The notes under the pieces are model-generated. The model made no database searches and was not told where the DNA came from. It worked only from the letters and a program-made list of their open reading frames with translations. A stretch of DNA of 64,000 nt from Modestobacter sp. VKM Ac-2986 (GTDB lineage: Bacteria; Actinomycetota; Actinomycetes; Mycobacteriales; Geodermatophilaceae), in assembly GCF_026967795.1 (NCBI RefSeq), contig NZ_JAPVBH010000002.1, forward strand, positions 558,001-622,000, in the 5' to 3' direction. Below, one piece after another: positions 6,183-21,657 of the stretch. Each line of letters opens with the position of its first letter. Position 1 is the stretch's first letter. Made by a program: the position numbers and the translations under genes.

Positions 6183-8772
6183 GGCAGCCGACACCTCCCC
6201 CCTGGACAGCACGGCCCCAGGAGCGACCGTCGGCGTACCCGACAAGCCCTCCGTGGACGGGCTCGAGGCCACCTGGACCGCCCGCTGGGCCGACCAGCAG
6301 ACCTACGGCTTCGACCGGGCCGCCGCGCTCGCCGCCCCCCGGTCGCAGACCTACGCGATCGACACCCCGCCGCCCACCGCGAGCGGCTCGCTGCACGTCG
6401 GGCACGTGTTCAGCTACACCCACACCGACATCGTCGCCCGCTACCAGCGGATGCGCGGCAAGCACGTGTTCTACCCGATGGGCTGGGACGACAACGGCCT
6501 GCCGACCGAGCGCCGGGTGCAGAACTACTACGGCGTGCGCTGCGACCCCTCGCTCCCCTACGACGCCGACTTCACCCCGCCGGAGAAGCCGGGCAAGGAC
6601 CAGCTGCCCATCTCCCGGCGCAACTTCGTCGAGCTGTGCGAGCAGCTGACCGCCGTCGACGAGGAGGAGTTCGCGAAGCTGTGGCGGCGGGTCGGCCTGT
6701 CGGTGGACTGGTCGAACGTCTACCGCACCATCTCGGAGACCTCCCGGGCCACCGCGCAGCGGATGTTCCTGCACAACCTGGCCCGCGGGGAGGCCTACGC
6801 CCAGGAGGCGCCGACCCTCTGGGACGTCACCTTCCGCACCGCCGTCGCCCAGGCCGAGCTGGAGGACCGCGAGCGCCCCGGCGCCTACCACCGGATCGGC
6901 TTCCCCGGCCCGGACGGTGAGCCGGTGTTCATCGAGACCACCCGCCCCGAGCTGCTGCCGGCCTGCGTCGCCCTGGTCGCGCACCCGGACGACGCCCGCT
7001 ACCAGCCGCTGTTCGGCAAGACGGTGACCACGCCGCTGTTCGGCGTCGAGGTCCCGGTGCTCGCTCACCGCCTCGCCGAGCCGGACAAGGGCTCGGGCAT
7101 CGCGATGATCTGCACCTTCGGCGACCTCAACGACGTCACCTGGTGGCGCGAGCTGCAGCTGCCGACCCGCGCCGTCATCGGCTGGGACGGCCGGTTCGTC
7201 GCCGACGCCCCCGAGGGCGTGCCCGCCCACGTCTACGCCGAGCTCGCCGGCAAGACCTCCTTCTCCGCCCAGCAGCGGGTCGTCGAGCTGCTGCGCGAGA
7301 GCGGCGACCTGGACGGCGACCCCCGCCCTATCACCCACCAGGTGAAGTTCTTCGAGAAGGGCGAGCGCCCGCTGGAGATCGTCACCACCCGCCAGTGGTA
7401 CATCCGCAACGGCGGCCGGGACGCCGACCTGCGCGCCGCGCTGATCGAGCGGGGCCGGGAGATCCAGTGGGTGCCCGAGCACATGCGGCACCGCTACGAG
7501 AACTGGGTCGACGGCCTCAACGGCGACTGGCTGGTCAGCCGCCAGCGGTTCTTCGGCGTCCCGTTCCCGATCTGGTACCGCCTGGACGCCGAGGGCCTGC
7601 CGGTGTACGACGAGCCGCTGCTGGCCCCGGAGGCCGCGCTGCCGGTGGACCCGTCCTCCGACGTCCCCGAGGGGTTCACCGAGGACCAGCGGGGCGTGCC
7701 CGGCGGGTTCATGGCCGACCCCGACGTCATGGACACCTGGGCGACGTCCTCCCTGTCGCCGCAGGTGGCCTCCGGGTGGGACACCGACCCGGAGCTCTTC
7801 GCGCACGTCTTCCCGATGGACCAGCGGCCGCAGGCGCACGACATCATCCGCACCTGGCTGTTCTCCACCGTCGTCCGCGCGCACTACGAGCACGGCTCGG
7901 TGCCCTTCACCCACGCCACCATCTCCGGCTTCGTGGTCGACCCCGACCGCAAGAAGATGAGCAAGTCCAAGGGCAACGCGACCACGCCGATCGACGTGCT
8001 GGAGCGCTACGGCACCGACGCGGTGCGCTGGCGCGCGGCCGGCGCCCGCCCGGGTGCCGACTCCCCCTTCGACGAGGCGCAGATGAAGGTCGGCCGCCGG
8101 CTGGCCATGAAGATCCTCAACGTCGGCAAGTTCGTCCTCGGCCTCGGCGCCTCCCCGGCGCTGACCGCCGCGGACGTCACCGAGCCGATCGACCTCGGGC
8201 TGCTGGCGTCGCTGGCGCAGGTGGTCGACGAGGCCACCGCGGCGATGGAGGCCTACAACTACACCCGGGCCCTCGAGGTCGCCGAGACGTTCTTCTGGTC
8301 GTTCTGCGACGACTACGTGGAGCTGGTGAAGACCCGCGCCTACCAGTCCGATGCCGCGGCGGTCTCCGCGCAGGCGACGCTGGCGCTGGCCCTGTCGGTG
8401 CAGCTGCGGCTGTTCGCCCCGGTGCTGCCCTTCGTCACCGAGGAGGTCTGGTCGTGGTGGCAGAGCGGGTCGGTGCACCGGGCGCTGTGGCCGACCGCGA
8501 CCGAGCTGCCGACCGGCGGTGACACCGCCGTCCCGGTGGTGGCCGCCGAGACCCTGGCCGCGGTGCGCAAGGCGAAGTCCGAGGCCAAGCAGTCGATGCG
8601 CGCCGACGTCGCCTCGGCCACGGTGACAGCCCCGGCCGCGCAGGTGCCGCTGGTGGAGGCGGTGCGCCCCGACCTCGTCGCCGCCGGCCGGATCGCCGAG
8701 CTCACCGTCGTCGCCGGCGAGGGCCCGCTGCGGGTCGACGTCGTCCTGGCCGAGGTGCCCGCGGAGGGCTGA
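6181..8772 (+). CDS. valS: valine--tRNA ligase (shorter, archaeal-like type)
   Basis: Encodes 863 residues from ATG 6181. It charges tRNA-Val. The class I signatures are [13 protein letters not shown] (HIGH) near residue 65 and [11 protein letters not shown] (KMSKS) near residue 590. The large editing insertion carries [20 protein letters not shown]. The protein stops soon after the anticodon-binding domain (ends [20 protein letters not shown]) and lacks the long C-terminal coiled coil of E. coli-type ValRS, matching the archaeal-like form known from some actinobacteria. It is divergent from folC with start codons interlocked at CATG 6180-6183. A 22-bp perfect hairpin ends the gene. Confidence 0.95.
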
Positions 8773-12916: not shown

Positions 12917-14488
<1,572 letters not shown>

Positions 14489-14585
14489 AGGGCAGCGCTC
14501 CTCTTGGGGGACAGACGGGACCCGACGCCGGCGGCGCCAGGTCGCCCACGAGTCTAGAGACGTCGCGGACGACGGTTGACGTGAG

Positions 14586-14659
14586 TCGGGGTGGCGGGAT
14601 TCGAACCCACGGCCCCCCGCTCCCAAAGCGGGTGCGCTACCAAGCTGCGCTACACCCCG
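14586..14659 (-). tRNA. tRNA-Pro (UGG)
   Basis: A 74-nt cloverleaf on the minus strand with acceptor CGGGGTG/CACCCCG, D-arm, anticodon loop TTTGGGA (UGG), T-loop TTCGAAT and discriminator A. CCA is not encoded. It is upstream of tig, as in other actinobacteria. Confidence 0.96.
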
Positions 14660-14727
14660 TGGCCCGCCGCTGAGTCTAGGCACTCGGGGCGACCGGTACT
14701 CTGTGCAGGCACCTCTCGGGGTGCACC

Positions 14728-14801
14728 GCGGGTGTAGCTCAATGGTAGAGCCCCAGCCTTCCAAGCTGGCCATGCCGGTTCGATCCCGGTCACCCGCTCC
14801 A
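14728..14801 (+). tRNA. tRNA-Gly (UCC), CCA encoded
   Basis: Acceptor GCGGGTG pairs with CACCCGC (14791-14797); anticodon loop CTTCCAA gives UCC; T-loop TTCGATC. The 3' CCA is encoded at 14799-14801. It diverges from tRNA-Pro with 68 bases between. The lower-GC island starts directly after it, so it is the likely insertion point, although I found no copy of its 3' end at the far side. Confidence 0.96.
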
Positions 14802-15377
14802 CGTGGTCACGCAGGTCACGGGATTGTCAGCGCCAGCTGGTGTCGCCGAGCCGATCCAACAGCCCGCTGCTTGCAGGCGGTCGCTCAGATGGCGTACTGG
14901 CTGTCGAGGTGCTCGACCCGGCTGCGGAACGTCACCTCAGGCAGTCAGCACTCGCGCAGGCCGTCGTGCACTCAAGGCTCAGCGGCAGCCGAACATGCGC
15001 ATCGAGCGCCGTGACGGCCAACGGAGGCAGTGATGCGTCCGGCGTGGACCGAACCGGGCCCGCAACTAAGCGTTGAGGACGCCGACGTCGCTGCCCACCA
15101 CCAGATCCGCGGAACCACGACCTAAACGCGAACCTCACGGCGTGACCGTGTTGGTCCTGAAGGGGCCGATGGACGCCGGTAAGGTCCACTGTCGGTGAGA
15201 TCAGGCGGTCCAGAGTTGCTTGCAATCGCTCCACGGTCCGGTCCCGGAGTAGCCGACGACGTCCCACCCAGGCTGCCGCCCTGTCGGCGTCGGCCGGTCT
15301 CACGCGGTGGGCCGTCGGCGGCGAGAGCCGCCTGGAAACGTCAGCCCAACCCGATATGAACGGGTGCCGTGGAGCCA
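14802..15377. other. non-coding or unassigned stretch between tRNA-Gly and the methyltransferase operon
   Basis: 576 bases with visibly lower GC than the core. Short open frames exist on both strands (for example 14932-15399 minus, 155 codons), but none has a ribosome-binding site, recognisable motif or the codon bias of neighbours. It probably contains the promoter of the methyltransferase operon and degraded island DNA. Confidence 0.5.
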
Positions 15378-16637
15378 ATGAGTGAGGTACGTGTGTCACA
15401 GATGGATGTTGGCCCAGTGGTGCATGAGCCGACCGGCGTTCATCAAACGCTGGTGCGATCCGGAGCCGACCTCACCCCGTACGAGGTGCAGTTCCTCGAC
15501 TTGTCCGGGCTCACCGATCTCGTGGCTGAGCCGGAGACCTGGACCTTCCTCGCGTCTAACCAAGCACTCTCGTTCGCCACCCATGGGACATTCCGGTACT
15601 TCGGCAAGTTCCCACCTCCGGTCGCTCGGCGGCTGATCTCGGCTTACACGGTGCCGGGGGACACTGTCGTCGACCTCATGGCCGGCAGCGGAACGACCGG
15701 CGTCGAGGCGTTGCTGTCCGGGCGCACCGCCATCCTCAACGACGTCAATCCGTTTAGCGCCCTGGTGGCCCGGGTCAAGACCACGAGGATCGCCACCGTG
15801 GAGGCACGCGCCGCCCTGCAGCAGGTGCGGCTGGTGGTCGAGGAGGGACTGGCCCAGCCTGTCGCGCCGTCCGGGTTGCGGAACACCGACCATTGGTTCC
15901 TGCCGGAGACGCAGACCAGCCTGGGTGCCATCCGCGGGGCTATCGACATGGTGACCAGAGGAGAAGTCCGCGACCTGCTGCTCGTGGCGCTGGCGGCGGT
16001 CGTTCGCAAGGTGTCACGGGCGACGACCCAGCAGGGCCGGCTCTTCCTCGATGCGACCACTGCACAGCTCGATGCGCTGCCTGCCTTCCTGAAGGCCGCG
16101 GACAAGCTGATCGACCGTGCAGCCTCCCTGCCCGAAGGCCTGGTCACTGTCACCAGTGAGGACGTCCGTGAGCTGGCGGTTCGCAGCCGTGCTCCGCTCG
16201 TGGTGCTCCATCCGCCGTATTTCAACGCATACAAGTACAGCTCGGTCAACAGCTTGGAGATGGCATGGCTGGGAATCGATCGAGCTGCTGTCCGCCGGCG
16301 TGAGATCCGCGAGTTTTTCAAGACCGCGAAACCCGACAAGCTCCAGGACTTCCTCTCCGACATGACGGCCGCCGCCACTCGCGCCGTCGACTGGCTTGCT
16401 CCGGGTGGACGCCTGGCTCTGATGCTGGGCGACGCGCGGCTCGGCGGTGAGCACGTTCGCGTGGTGCGGCCCCTGCTCGACGCACTCAGCGACCGACTGG
16501 TCGTAGAGCGATTGATCATGCGCGTGCCCAAGTTCACCGAGGCCAGCTGGGCGGCGAGCCAGCGGCGCACAACAGCCGAACTGGGGGCGTCGAAGATGTA
16601 CGACTTCATCGTCGTCCTGAGGCCTGCTCATGGCTGA
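15378..16637 (+). CDS. DNA methyltransferase A of the island (N4-C/N6-A type, HPPY motif)
   Basis: Encodes about 419 residues from ATG 15378 (GGAG four bases upstream; GTG 15369 and ATG 15402 are alternatives). The AdoMet-binding motif I, VVDLMAGSGTTGVEALL, is near residue 100, followed by NDVNPFS, and the catalytic motif IV, VVLHPPYFNAYKYSS, is near 280. The C-terminal GGRLALMLGDARLGG fits motifs V-VI. Motif order (I, long insert, IV) puts target recognition in the insert. The HPPY in place of DPPY/SPPY is unusual. The stop overlaps the next ATG by eight bases. It very likely methylates DNA in a restriction-modification or defence setting; base and site are unknown. Confidence 0.85.
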   Translation: MSEVRVSQMDVGPVVHEPTGVHQTLVRSGADLTPYEVQFLDLSGLTDLVAEPETWTFLASNQALSFATHGTFRYFGKFPPPVARRLISAYTVPGDTVVDLMAGSGTTGVEALLSGRTAILNDVNPFSALVARVKTTRIATVEARAALQQVRLVVEEGLAQPVAPSGLRNTDHWFLPETQTSLGAIRGAIDMVTRGEVRDLLLVALAAVVRKVSRATTQQGRLFLDATTAQLDALPAFLKAADKLIDRAASLPEGLVTVTSEDVRELAVRSRAPLVVLHPPYFNAYKYSSVNSLEMAWLGIDRAAVRRREIREFFKTAKPDKLQDFLSDMTAAATRAVDWLAPGGRLALMLGDARLGGEHVRVVRPLLDALSDRLVVERLIMRVPKFTEASWAASQRRTTAELGASKMYDFIVVLRPAHG

Positions 16638-18333
16638 AGTCGTCGTTCCGGCCGAGACTCACGGGCCGCAATACGGCCTGCATAAGTACTGGGCGCGCAA
16701 GCCGGCGACCGTCCTGGATCACCACCTCGGCAGGCTGCTGACGGCTCCCGGAGTCGTCGTCGACCCGTTCTGCGGCAGCGGGGTGTTCCTCCGGCAGGCA
16801 GCAGAGGCCGGGCACAGTGCATACGGCTTCGACGTCAATCCCCTCGCGGTGATGCTCTCCAGCATGACGCTGGACCCGCCGCCCGCACGGGACTTCTGCG
16901 ACGCGGTCGAAGTCCTGCTGGCGACGCTGGGCGACGATGCCGAGCGGAGCTTCAAGCTCGACGACGGTCGACCCGTCAGATATGTCGTGCATGCCCTGGT
17001 CACTTGCTGCCCGCAGTGTTCGCGGCGTACCGCAGCCAACCTGGCAGGCAAGGTGGGACGCCGATACGTTTGCATCTGCGGGACACGCTTGCAGTACAAC
17101 CTCGCCGTCTCCGAGAGCACTCGTGTCGTCGACGTAGTCGGGCCTGACCCCTCAGCGGCCTCACCTCAAAGGGAGTTAAAGCGACAGCAGCAGCTGTCCG
17201 CCGTCCCGAGCGCTCCGGAGCTGCACGAGCGGTACTCCGTCCCCTTCGTGGACAACGCACGCACGCTCACCCGAGCCGACATGAGAACCGAGGACCTGTT
17301 CACCCCCCGCAACTTCTCCCTCCTCGTCCGTGCCGCGGACTTCGCCGAAGGCCTGCCGGACGCGGGCCTGCGGGAAGCCATGCAGATGCTGGTAACCAGC
17401 AGCGTTGCCCAGTGCTCGCGGCTCATCGCCGATCGGGGCCGGATGTCCGGCGGCGGCCCGGCGTGGACGGTTCCGGGGTACTGGGTGCCACCGGTGCACC
17501 TGGAGACCAATCCGATCAATCACCTGAGAGCGCGCGCCAAGCGGTTCTCGGCGGGCCTCGCCCGACTGCACGGAGTGCCGGCCCGTAAGGGCCGGGTGGA
17601 GCTTGAGGACGCACGCACCGGGATGCGCGGACTGCGGGAGACCGGCGTCCGGGCGGACTTGGTCTTCCTCGACCCACCGTACGGCGACAGCGTTGCCTAT
17701 CTTGAGTTCTCCGCGCTGTGGAACGCCTTTCTACGCCGCGACGCGGACCTGGCCCAGGACCTCAGCGTTTCCCAGCGCAAGCAGCAGCCGGCCACGTGGG
17801 AGGCATACGAGGACGGGCTCCGGGTCGCCGTACAGGAGGCCGCGCAGTTGCTGACCGACGACGGGCGCCTCCTTGTCACCTTCAACAGCTTGGACCTGCG
17901 GGCCTGGTCGGCACTGATGACGGCGGTGCAGGGAGCCGGGCTCATCCTTGAAGAAGTTACCTATCAGAGGCCAGCGGTGGTGTCGGCCAAGGCGCAGTTC
18001 TCCACCGACGGCAGCTACCAGGGTGACTTCTACGGCACCTTTCGCGCGGGCTCAGCGGAGATGATCACCACGAGCGAGGGGGAGGACCAGCTAGCCGCTC
18101 AGTATGAGCAGCTCGTCGCAGGGCACGGGCCCGTCGTGCCGCGCGGCCTGGTACATCGGGTGACCGCACTGTCCGCGATGCGGATGAACCTGGACAGCGC
18201 GAGCTGGGGTGAACTCGATCAACTCATCGGCCGCTACTTCTCGGGTCGAGGAACGCGGCTGTCCGCGACCGCACTCCTCCTGCAGCGGTGCGCGCCTGTC
18301 GACGGCACTCCGCGGCCGGCTCCGGCGGCCTAG
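16630..18333 (+). CDS. DNA methyltransferase B of the island (DPPY, Cys-rich insert)
   Basis: Encodes 567 residues. The N-terminal GLHKYWARKP (near 16-25) is a hallmark of large DNA methylases related to DUF1156-type enzymes. Motif I is VVVDPFCGSGVFLRQA near 45, then GFDVNPLAV; motif IV is LVFLDPPYGDSVAYLEF near 345; GRLLVTFNSLDLRAW is motif VI-like. Between them, CCPQC (126-130) and CIC (148-150) look like a zinc ribbon. A TTA leucine codon, rare in this genome, is at 17176-17178. It overlaps methyltransferase A by eight bases and ends at a CTAG shared with the opposing nuclease gene. Two methylases side by side suggest an asymmetric target with one enzyme per strand. Confidence 0.85.
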   Translation: MAEVVVPAETHGPQYGLHKYWARKPATVLDHHLGRLLTAPGVVVDPFCGSGVFLRQAAEAGHSAYGFDVNPLAVMLSSMTLDPPPARDFCDAVEVLLATLGDDAERSFKLDDGRPVRYVVHALVTCCPQCSRRTAANLAGKVGRRYVCICGTRLQYNLAVSESTRVVDVVGPDPSAASPQRELKRQQQLSAVPSAPELHERYSVPFVDNARTLTRADMRTEDLFTPRNFSLLVRAADFAEGLPDAGLREAMQMLVTSSVAQCSRLIADRGRMSGGGPAWTVPGYWVPPVHLETNPINHLRARAKRFSAGLARLHGVPARKGRVELEDARTGMRGLRETGVRADLVFLDPPYGDSVAYLEFSALWNAFLRRDADLAQDLSVSQRKQQPATWEAYEDGLRVAVQEAAQLLTDDGRLLVTFNSLDLRAWSALMTAVQGAGLILEEVTYQRPAVVSAKAQFSTDGSYQGDFYGTFRAGSAEMITTSEGEDQLAAQYEQLVAGHGPVVPRGLVHRVTALSAMRMNLDSASWGELDQLIGRYFSGRGTRLSATALLLQRCAPVDGTPRPAPAA

Positions 18334-18944
18334 ACGAGGACCACGGGGACGTCCAGGGACTCAGCGATCTGCTCGGCGGTCGCGGCGAATGTCTCCGGGG
18401 CGATCAACCGGCAGTCGATCCGAGTGGCGCCAGCGGTGCGAAGGCACTCGAAACCGAACACCTCCGGTCGAAGGTGACCAGCCCTGTCAACGCGTTCGAC
18501 GTGACCCGCGTAGAGGTCGGTGGCGGCGCGCGCGGCGGTGGCGGACGTGGGCCGTTCCGCGCCCCAGAGCAACGCACAGTACGTCGCGTGGGCGCGCCGG
18601 GAGATCCAGGCGCCCTCCCGGGACGCGAGGGCTCCCGTCAGGTCCACGGCGACCTGAGCCGACTTGGCGGCCTGCGCGGTGAGGCCGGCCAGCTCGGTCT
18701 TCGCCTCGATGATCAGCGTCGTTGCCAGCCGATCGTTGACCAGCACCAGGTCCGGGCGGGTCTCCTCGCGGCCGAAACGGTGCACCTCTGTGGACCGGCC
18801 GCTCGAATCAGGCGCCATGACGCGCTTCCACGGGCCAGCGGTCGGGTTGGTGAAGGCGACGAACCACTCGTCGCCGGCGACGTCCACCTTGACCTCGAGT
18901 GCCCAGCGGGCCATCTCCTCGGTTACCTTGCGCACACGCCTCAC
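18330..18944 (-). CDS. PD-(D/E)XK-type nuclease C of the island, 204 aa
   Basis: GTG 18944 gives 204 residues and overlaps the stop of the upstream gene as GTGA (18941-18944). Residues 62-82 carry ETRPDLVLVN followed by TTLIIEAKTEL: a P-D, a spacer and E-A-K, which is the textbook PD-(D/E)XK nuclease core (D65, E80, K82). No helicase or HNH motif is present. Its gene is the second in a two-gene operon that converges on the methyltransferases, so it is the likeliest cleaving subunit. The family is not recognised. It might instead be a subunit or accessory nuclease needing the 493-aa partner. Confidence 0.75.
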   Translation of the reverse strand: MRRVRKVTEEMARWALEVKVDVAGDEWFVAFTNPTAGPWKRVMAPDSSGRSTEVHRFGREETRPDLVLVNDRLATTLIIEAKTELAGLTAQAAKSAQVAVDLTGALASREGAWISRRAHATYCALLWGAERPTSATAARAATDLYAGHVERVDRAGHLRPEVFGFECLRTAGATRIDCRLIAPETFAATAEQIAESLDVPVVLV

Positions 18945-20422
18945 AAGGTCACGCCGGTTGTGGGCAGGACGGCGACGCCTCCAGCGAAGATGATGAGGTC
19001 GGTCAGTTCCTTCATGATCGTGACTCCCTTGTTCGGTCTGGCCGCCCTGAGCGCGCGAATTTGGGCATGGGACTGGTGCGGGTAGTAGGCCACGACGCGG
19101 CGAGGACGCTGGTCGAACTTCCCGAAGGCGGTGGCCCATGCCGCGAGCTGGCCGGTGAACGGGTCCCCGAAGATGCGGCCGGGCTTGACGCTGCTGCTCA
19201 AGTAGACGAACACCGGATCCTCCTCGGCGAAGACGAGACCGTCGAGCTTCTCGGAGAGCCTCGGGAAGGTGGTCTGGAGACTTTGGGAAAAGTCGCCCCA
19301 GCTGTCGTACAAGTAGGCGATGTGCCGGCTGCGGGTCACGTGCTTGCGGCCTGTCGGGCTGTTCTGGAAGTCGTCCATCGACAGCGTCCAGCGCACAGCG
19401 GGATCGAGAGCCGGCATCCGTTGGTGGCTGGTCCGATGGGCCGTCAGCCACACCTCGAGGTCGGCAGGTGGTTGCGGCTTGGAACCGCGCCCCTTCATCA
19501 CCGGGTACGCCAACCCCTCCGCGACGTCCTTCTCGATTTGCTGCGCCAGTACGTCGTCCGTGGTGACCTTTTCTGCCACTCCCTCGCGCAAGGGGTGATC
19601 GCCCGAACTCAACAAAGGCCACCGCAGGAAAGCCTTGTCCCAGATGGCCTCCTCCGCCTCCGGATGACCCAGGGCAGCGGCGGCGTACTGAGCTGGCAGG
19701 TCGGCGTCGGCCAGCGCCGGACTGCCCGGGAGGTACTCGATCTGACTGCGCCACTGCCGATCGATGAACTTCAGCATCTCGTCGTACTGCTCGGTCAGCA
19801 GCGCCTGCAGGCTCGCCTCGACAGACGACGCGCCGACCGAGTCGAGGATCAGCCGGTGCAGTGTCTGGAAGAGGCTGCGGAGACCAGTGCCGGCGGAGTA
19901 GTCCTCGGGCGACGTCAGGTCAGAGTAGTGCAGCACGACGGATGGAACCCGACGGTCCTGAGTCAGCTTCAGGGCCGTGATGGTGGGCCAGATCGAGTCA
20001 TGCCGCACGCCGCCGTCCAGGTGCATGCCGAACTCGCTCAGCAGGTACCAGAAGGGGATGCCGAGGCGCATCGCTCCGTACTGTCGCTCGCACCGTTGCA
20101 TGGCCTGGTTGCCGGTCGGGGTGGCCGCCGTCTCTTCGACCGCGAAGAGAATCCGGTCGGACGAGGCGTCGTACAACGCCAGATCTGGCTTACCCCATGG
20201 CACGAGCTCGCTGATCTTCTCCGGTCGAGACTCCCACGCGTCGTAGTCGCCGTAGACCACGATCTCGAACGACGCAGGACCGGAATAGGTGTGCACGGGG
20301 AGGAAGCCGTCCACGAAGGAGTAGGAGTGCGTCCCTCCGGCCTGTATGTGTGTCAGGGCGAGTTGCTCGCACGCCCACTGGCCCTCATGAAAGCTGTCGC
20401 TCCAGAGTTCGAACGTCCGCAT
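18941..20422 (-). CDS. putative restriction subunit D of the island, 493 aa, PD...EET motif
   Basis: ATG 20422 has GGAGGT eight bases upstream, which sets the start; the long in-frame extension above it is not protein-like. Residues 77-98 read WGKPDLALYD then ILFAVEETAAT, and TGNQAMQR follows at 103-110. This resembles a nuclease core of PD-(D/E)XK type with E-E-T in place of E-X-K (D80, E96, E97), plus a conserved-looking QR. The remaining 380 residues have no recognised domain and may hold target recognition. Coupled to nuclease C by GTGA. Restriction function is inferred from motif plus context. Confidence 0.65.
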   Translation of the reverse strand: MRTFELWSDSFHEGQWACEQLALTHIQAGGTHSYSFVDGFLPVHTYSGPASFEIVVYGDYDAWESRPEKISELVPWGKPDLALYDASSDRILFAVEETAATPTGNQAMQRCERQYGAMRLGIPFWYLLSEFGMHLDGGVRHDSIWPTITALKLTQDRRVPSVVLHYSDLTSPEDYSAGTGLRSLFQTLHRLILDSVGASSVEASLQALLTEQYDEMLKFIDRQWRSQIEYLPGSPALADADLPAQYAAAALGHPEAEEAIWDKAFLRWPLLSSGDHPLREGVAEKVTTDDVLAQQIEKDVAEGLAYPVMKGRGSKPQPPADLEVWLTAHRTSHQRMPALDPAVRWTLSMDDFQNSPTGRKHVTRSRHIAYLYDSWGDFSQSLQTTFPRLSEKLDGLVFAEEDPVFVYLSSSVKPGRIFGDPFTGQLAAWATAFGKFDQRPRRVVAYYPHQSHAQIRALRAARPNKGVTIMKELTDLIIFAGGVAVLPTTGVTL

Positions 20423-21099
20423 TGTCACAACCTCCGACTTCCACCAGATCGCGGCCGAGGCGCACTCACTCCACCTCGACAGGCCGGTGAGATCAGCACG
20501 CGTCATGTCAGGTCGACCAGGCCATCGACGTCCCGCTCGACACCGCGTGACACTTTTGCTCCTCCATCGGCAGGCTGGTGCCACCTCTTGACCAGGTGCG
20601 CAAGGCGAGACACCCTCGCGTCGACAGCCGTGACCTGTTGATGGGCGTGTCTCAGGCGGCCTGTTGATCACCCTTTGATCCGTCGGGTCGTTCGACGACG
20701 CCGTGGTCTTCAACGCACGAGCCGATGCATAGGCCTGGCCGGCCAGCCAGCCAGCAGACTGGCTTGCTCCGCGGAGCTGGTGGGTTCTACACGCCGTTCA
20801 CCGCACCATCGGTCGGAACGCCCAGGATCACCGGTCACTCGCGCTGAATGCCGCAGCGCAGCCAGCTCCTGGTGAGCTACCTCCTGGGATGGAGTGGGTG
20901 CTTGGCGGCCCCCATACCCAACCCGAAGGTCCCTATTCAGATCAAGATCAGCTGCTCACCGCAGCACTGCACCAACCTGTCCGGGCAGTACACCTAGGCG
21001 GCGTTGAAGGCGCCCTCGGTGAGCTCCCGCCGCCACCACGCCGCTCCCGACGGCCGTGTCGGGGCAGTGCTGCCAGCTCGCCCGGATTGACGGCCTGCT
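20423..21099. other. unassigned stretch at the right end of the island
   Basis: 677 bases. The left part must contain the promoter and leader of the nuclease operon. A short CCAG-rich stretch near 20738-20762 can fold back. Open frames here (20675-20875 plus, 20889-21551 plus, 20994-21305 minus) have no start site or motif I can support; the last ends in a protein-like RRELTEGAFNAA and may be a gene remnant. GC rises to core level after about 21000, which I take as the island edge. Confidence 0.45.
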
Positions 21100-21657
21100 T
21101 CACGGCTCCACGCGGTGGTGCAGGTGGACGACGCCACCGGCGAACCTGCGCTCGGAGACCAGCTCCAAGTCCAGTCGCAGCCCGTCGGGCAGGGCGCGGG
21201 TGCCGCCGCCGACGACGACCGGGTGCACGAACTGGTGCAGGTCGTCGACGAGGCCGGCCCGCAGCGCGTGCGCGGCCAGCCCCGGCCCGCCGATCGCCAG
21301 GTCACGGTCCGTCCCGGCCTTCAGCCGGGCGACCGCCGCCGGGTCGAAGGTGCGCTCGAGCCGGGTCCGCGGGGTGCCCACCTCCGCCAGCGTCGTGGAA
21401 TAGACGACCTTGTCCGCGGCCCGCCAGATCTCGGCGTAGTCGTTCTCGACCGGGTCGTGGTCGGGGCCGGCGACGTCCTGCCAGACCGCGAGGGTCTCGT
21501 ACATCCGCCGGCCGTACAGGTGGGTGCCCACCGGCCGCTCGAGGTCGTTGACGAACGCGTGCAGCTCCTCGTCCGGCGCCGCCCAGTCGAACCGGCCGTC
21601 GGCGTCGGCGGTGTACCCGTCCAGCGAGCACAGCACGGCGTACTGCAGCCGGCCCAT
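21100..21657 (-). CDS. dihydrofolate reductase family protein (RibD C-terminal type)
   Basis: Encodes 185 residues with the DHFR/RibD fold: MGRLQYAVLCSLDGYTADA at the start, LYGRRMYETLAVW in the middle, and DLAIGGPGLAAHAL before the NADPH-binding end. Bacterial proteins of this kind are uncharacterised NAD(P)H reductases rather than true DHFR. Its ATG overlaps the stop of the sigma factor gene as TGATG (21655-21659), so the two are translated together and the reductase may be part of the sigma factor's response. Confidence 0.85.
   Translation of the reverse strand: MGRLQYAVLCSLDGYTADADGRFDWAAPDEELHAFVNDLERPVGTHLYGRRMYETLAVWQDVAGPDHDPVENDYAEIWRAADKVVYSTTLAEVGTPRTRLERTFDPAAVARLKAGTDRDLAIGGPGLAAHALRAGLVDDLHQFVHPVVVGGGTRALPDGLRLDLELVSERRFAGGVVHLHHRVEP

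Follow-up and report, generated by a model that had tools for sequence, protein, structure and literature searches.

What do the two convergent gene pairs beside a tRNA-Gly gene of Modestobacter sp. VKM Ac-2986 encode, and is their product a defense system of a new kind? In the window (the whole stretch of 64,000 nucleotides that was analyzed), a first-pass annotation had noted two DNA methyltransferase genes facing two putative nuclease genes and had proposed an undescribed restriction or defense system. Our analysis makes it very probable that this cluster is a complete Type IIS/IIT restriction–modification system for an asymmetric site, with the architecture that published descriptions give for BsrDI and BtsI. 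The features of the locus are collected in Table 1.

Table 1. The methylase–nuclease cluster and its surroundings, in window coordinates.
Feature	Position	Strand	Basis or remark
tRNA-Gly (TCC)	14728..14801	+	ARAGORN and Rfam agree; 3′ end marks the left boundary of the variable insertion site
Island	14803..20996		6,194 bp here; the equivalent stretch of genome G020 has 885 bp
M1, amino-type DNA methyltransferase, 419 aa	15378..16637	+	PF01555 and PDLC03239
M2, amino-type DNA methyltransferase, 567 aa	16630..18333	+	PF01555 and PDLC03367
Small nuclease subunit (putative), 204 aa, GTG start	18330..18944	-	PD-X14-EAK motif
Large nuclease subunit (putative), 493 aa	18941..20422	-	PDLC03392 and PD-X15-EET...GNQAMQR

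All four reading frames are open where they had first been placed, and the overlaps are as first described: the M1 and M2 genes share 8 bases on the plus strand, the small and large nuclease genes, both on the minus strand, share 4 bases (GTGA), and the stop codons of the convergent M2 and small nuclease genes share 4 bases (CTAG). The motifs claimed for the minus-strand products, PD...EAK and PD...EET...GNQAMQR, are present as well, and since both are kept in all five of the full quartets considered below (the window’s own included), they are not a product of chance. The GC3 of the four genes lies between 0.80 and 0.87. No promoter-like site was found at the locus, and its terminator-like sites did not rise above shuffles.

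Both plus-strand proteins are readily placed. M1 matches PF01555 in Pfam (2.3e-14) and, with 290 bits over residues 32–415, the PADLOC model PDLC03239, “Type II methyltransferase”; its glycine-rich motif is MAGSGTT and its PPY motif reads HPPY. The first residue of methylase motif IV is usually D, N or S, which makes HPPY unusual; it occupies motif IV in all five M1 proteins of the full quartets and also in the methylase of a more distant locus, L010. M2 matches PF01555 (2.8e-10) and another PADLOC model named “Type II methyltransferase”, PDLC03367, with 455 bits over residues 5–545, and has the motifs DPFCGSG and DPPY together with a cysteine-rich insert.

For the 493-aa protein, PADLOC returned PDLC03392, “Type II nicking endonuclease”, with 431 bits over residues 5–485 (the model is named by enzyme class only, and the enzymes behind it are not stated), as well as a weak match of 18.6 bits to a second restriction-enzyme model, PDLC03434. 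When a profile of this protein and five relatives was compared with the Protein Data Bank, it matched BsmI, an isoschizomer of Mva1269I (structures 9f38, 9ezd, 9ez5 and 9ez7), at E 1.2e-5 over profile positions 79–235, an alignment that spans the PD...E...GNQAxQR region; BsmI is a single polypeptide of about 676 aa, whereas the nuclease encoded here would consist of two proteins. Two designed TIM barrels also scored in this search (1.8e-4 and 2.7e-4, over a 20-residue stretch), and we take these matches to be due to chance. The large subunit does not have the lysine of the canonical PD-(D/E)XK site but reads E-E-T, and BsmI at the aligned place reads E-F-C, likewise without a lysine.

The 204-aa protein matched no family in Pfam, NCBIfam or PADLOC and no convincing solved relative in the Protein Data Bank, where its best E values were 1.6 and 1.9. 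Its motif residues P64, D65, E80 and K82 are invariant in all five quartets, and in each of them the small gene lies directly after the large one. Plasmid records contained no relative of it at E 0.01, and viral scans found it only on the contig of L011, one of the quartet carriers described next.

Close relatives of the large subunit were sought in two ways: a pattern-based scan of an 84,980-species collection, which detects close relatives only, gave four loci, and a scan of viral contigs with the large-subunit family alignment gave one. The four-gene arrangement, for which the first-pass annotation had recommended a search in other genomes, recurs in full at four of these five loci (L004, L005, L006 and L011), the carriers being three Firmicutes MAGs and one IMG/VR contig (L011). 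Because L004, L005 and L011 are mutually close (79–94% identity), the full quartets outside the window amount to two lineages. The L006 large subunit, near a contig edge, has no start, and a piece matching positions 3–61 of the large-subunit profile is found on a different contig of the same genome. When pairwise identities are tabulated across the five full quartets, the matrices for the four proteins correlate closely (r 0.99–1.00, a figure dominated by the close trio), as expected if the four proteins travel together. Gene order differs: the pairs converge in the window and in L006, and all four genes stand in line in L004, L005 and L011.

The first-pass annotation had staked its reading on relatives of these genes not being regularly found apart. 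This holds among the close kin, four out of five of which are in quartets while the fifth, L007, is fused or deleted; further out, methylase kin do occur separately, and large-subunit kin stand beside other methylases. M1-like genes are found without a detected large subunit in 11 plasmid records (at most 31% identity) and M2-like genes in 8 (at most 26%), and the one plasmid record with a large-subunit relative, a weak one, is not among these 19. A few viral contigs also have methylase relatives, at 24–32% over long or partial stretches, with one short match of 50%. Phage records gave no large-subunit relative at E 1e-3. At L007 (8001–10991), a single 996-aa frame joins the first ~397 large-subunit residues to M2, and neither a small subunit nor M1 adjoins it; as the contig name gives a coverage of 2.85, misassembly is possible, and the frame could be either that or a natural fusion after deletion. 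The end of another viral contig (L062/L065) carries a partial M1 and a complete M2, and by eye these methylase sequences look the same as those of L011. From our reading of the sequence, L065 also has phage-like genes; L065 and L011 are both IMG/VR contigs. With the quartet or its methylase end on such contigs, and phage-like genes in L065, the quartet may be carried by a phage or prophage.

The arrangement resembles that of several restriction enzymes that cut with two unlike subunits. According to PMC2909958, site recognition and bottom-strand nicking by BtsI are both functions of the large subunit; the small subunit, which has no activity by itself, contributes the remainder of the top-strand site, and modification is divided between M1 and M2, one for each strand. 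Type IIT is defined by two different catalytic sites in PMC4081073, which counts BsrDI, BtsI and BspD6I as large–small heterodimers, gives two methylases as the general accompaniment of Type IIT enzymes, and describes the single-chain Mva1269I as a fusion of an ancestral heterodimer. At the level of motifs, two unlike nuclease polypeptides, each with its own motif, are present in all five quartets; the window’s large subunit is of the nicking-endonuclease family (PDLC03392), and two methylases, M1 and M2, accompany the pair.

BsrDI and BtsI share with the window a set of two nuclease genes of unequal size and two methylase genes (for BtsI, PMC2909958), a likeness at the level of published descriptions. 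The PD...E motif is present in both BtsI and the window, whose large subunit matches a model named for nicking endonucleases. BtsIB is about 38 kDa (by arithmetic from concentrations given in PMC2909958), whereas the window’s large subunit is longer, at 493 aa; the P-to-E spacing of BtsIB is 15 (P57 and E72 in the same paper), like that of L010, and that of the window’s large subunit is 17. BspD6I likewise consists of a large nickase, Nt.BspD6I, and a small catalytic subunit (PMC6261011), but searches with the window proteins retrieved neither of its solved subunits at E values of 5 or less. BbvCI, the example chosen in the first-pass annotation, is also an asymmetric-site heterodimer, but it is a weaker analogue because its subunits are similar in size (PMC4081073), compared with 204 and 493 aa in the window. 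The label “undescribed” does not stand, given that a library model covers the large subunit over almost its full length and that the BsrDI/BtsI architecture has been published (PMC2909958 and PMC4081073). The cluster looks like a member of the kind known from BsrDI and BtsI rather than a new type of defense.

If it works as such a system, the 493-aa protein would combine the recognition function with one PD-(D/E)XK-like site and would, alone, nick one strand; the 204-aa protein, bound to the large subunit, would bring the second site, PD...EAK, and cut the other strand. Protection of the host would come from M1 and M2, one methylating each strand of a shared recognition site, and unmethylated phage or plasmid DNA would be cut. 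We infer the formation of the heterodimer, its division of labor and assignment of strands, the target site and cut positions, and the role in defense. The mechanism first proposed, with two methylases and a two-protein Type IIS/IIT nuclease, agrees with the 431-bit nicking model, the Type II methyltransferase models and the recurrence of the quartet, and appears largely right. The window’s cluster would add a high-GC actinobacterial member to the natural nicking-enzyme family, which provides useful strand-specific nickases in the form of its large subunits, and the cluster’s recognition site may be new.

Several other readings of the four genes have to be weighed. The large subunit might be a nicking enzyme that works alone, with the 204-aa protein a regulator or inhibitor and not a catalytic partner; the name of the PADLOC model points that way, as do the small protein’s want of a family match and two distant loci (L009 and L010) at which, in the stretch examined, no partner of at least 130 aa follows the large gene. 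Such a role is hard to square with a PD...EAK motif kept in all five quartets, with a small gene directly after the large one in every quartet, and with the small protein that also follows the large gene directly at three of the five distant loci (L014, L016 and L017, bearing PD...ENK in the last two), and we consider this reading improbable. We also think it quite unlikely that the system is decayed or silent, with active methylases and a nuclease that no longer functions in this strain: four open frames and motif residues kept across relatives argue against it, and the feature that might betray decay, the absence of the motif lysine from the large subunit, is shared by BsmI at the aligned place.

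It would be very surprising if the methylases instead served a defense of a different principle, such as one like BREX, DISARM, MADS or PglX. M2 does show weak matches to DUF1156, PglX and MAD2 models, but the PADLOC models in question reach at most 59 bits, where the Type II model has 455, and in NCBIfam DUF1156 gets 45.8 bits, far under its cut-off of 1000. Searches with Pfam, NCBIfam and PADLOC found no helicase or ATPase family in the four proteins, and a Pfam scan of four neighboring ORFs gave a trigger factor, a RibD_C-domain protein, a sigma factor and one ORF that matched nothing. The first-pass annotation had argued against Type I, Type III, BREX and DISARM from the absence of a helicase or translocase, and over these proteins and neighbors we concur.

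Beyond the close relatives, a profile of L016, L009 and L010 (A9) aligned over 140 columns with the window’s large-subunit family, with a probability of 95.5%, and single proteins from L010, L009, L016 and L014 match PDLC03392 at E 3.2e-4 or better, so that some of the weak matches are real large-subunit kin. (Weak matches with internal stops, L002 and L003/L018, were left out, and L015 had no readable ORF in the stretch examined.) The L016/L009/L010 profile found no solved relative, BsmI included. PD...E...GHNxxQR is present in four of the five distant kin (L016, L017, L009 and L010) and in a looser form in L014, a haloarchaeal plasmid with a pair of 452-aa and 205-aa proteins; the P-to-E spacing of L010 is 15. 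Large–small pairs that are kin of the nicking family through their large member, and that have other methylases, lie at L016 (1342–3071), L017 (107–3009) and L014 (4983–6943), one of the methylases being fused into an 817-aa protein. No homology was detected between the window’s small subunit (P0003) and the small partner of L016/L017: the profile probability was 0.54%, in a comparison where one of the alignments had just two rows, although the PD...E.K motifs of the two fall in register.

These loci allow the tentative suggestion that the large subunit is an exchangeable module and that new specificities arise by swapping unrelated small partners and unrelated methylases. The small partners would be those with PD...EAK in the window and with PD...ENK in L016 and L017, and the 205-aa protein of L014, in which no PD...E.K motif was found; none was seen at L009 and L010, where the 3.3 kb examined contain no protein of at least 130 aa immediately after the large gene on the same strand. 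As for the methylases, the window has two amino-methylases, whereas our reading of the sequence places a C5-type enzyme in L016, fused in L017 and near L009; that of L010 is of the PDLC03380 type. If the large subunit is such a module, the window system would be one of several uncharacterized natural nicking enzymes with new sites.

Among the genomes sampled, the system looks rare, each sample including by design either the home genome or G351. A strong large-subunit match was obtained in the home genome only, in one of 296 genomes of the phylum sample (PADLOC model; weak in two further genomes), one of 298 of the order sample (A2; weak in one further) and one of 59 relatives (P0004; weak in two further), and in G351 only among 391 genomes of its class (A2; weak in three further). 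The small subunit was found in one of the 296 genomes (at most ten candidates scored per genome) and one of the 391, again the home genome and G351.

The cluster sits just past the tRNA-Gly gene at the left edge of the island. The match to relatives around this gene ends at 14799–14820 in all ten of the relatives’ stretches compared, and at 14802–14804 in seven, and the next flank match lies from 75 bp (G005) to ~129 kb (G008) away, so that the tRNA gene marks a variable insertion site. The corresponding place in G020, which matches best of 22 other genomes of the genus, has 885 bp, largely covered by a phosphotransferase-family ORF. A direct-repeat or integrase origin of the island was also considered: no copy of the tRNA-Gly 3′ end was among the 20 direct-repeat families seen of the 22 listed for 14500–21200, and no integrase family was found in the four proteins or the neighbors scanned. 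Some islands at the tRNA-Gly site in other genomes have partial tRNA copies inside them.

We also considered whether the site is a defense hotspot, and this idea was not supported, as the occupants scanned elsewhere were not defense genes by PADLOC or Pfam. The scan of relatives’ islands covered 14 different proteins and three more, 17 of the 64 ORFs listed: ten proteins from three relatives’ islands had no PADLOC match at 1e-10, and Pfam placed ten from five relatives’ islands in families of metabolism, transport or signalling. For defense biology, the cluster would be a restriction system of the ordinary sort, at a chromosomal site whose content varies. Elsewhere in the window, ARAGORN calls a tRNA-His at 8451–8538 on the plus strand that is absent from the Rfam results at the gathering score and is probably a false positive. 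The neighboring trigger factor (12917–14773, minus strand) has a long histidine-rich C-terminal tail (HDHAGHDHDHDH...).
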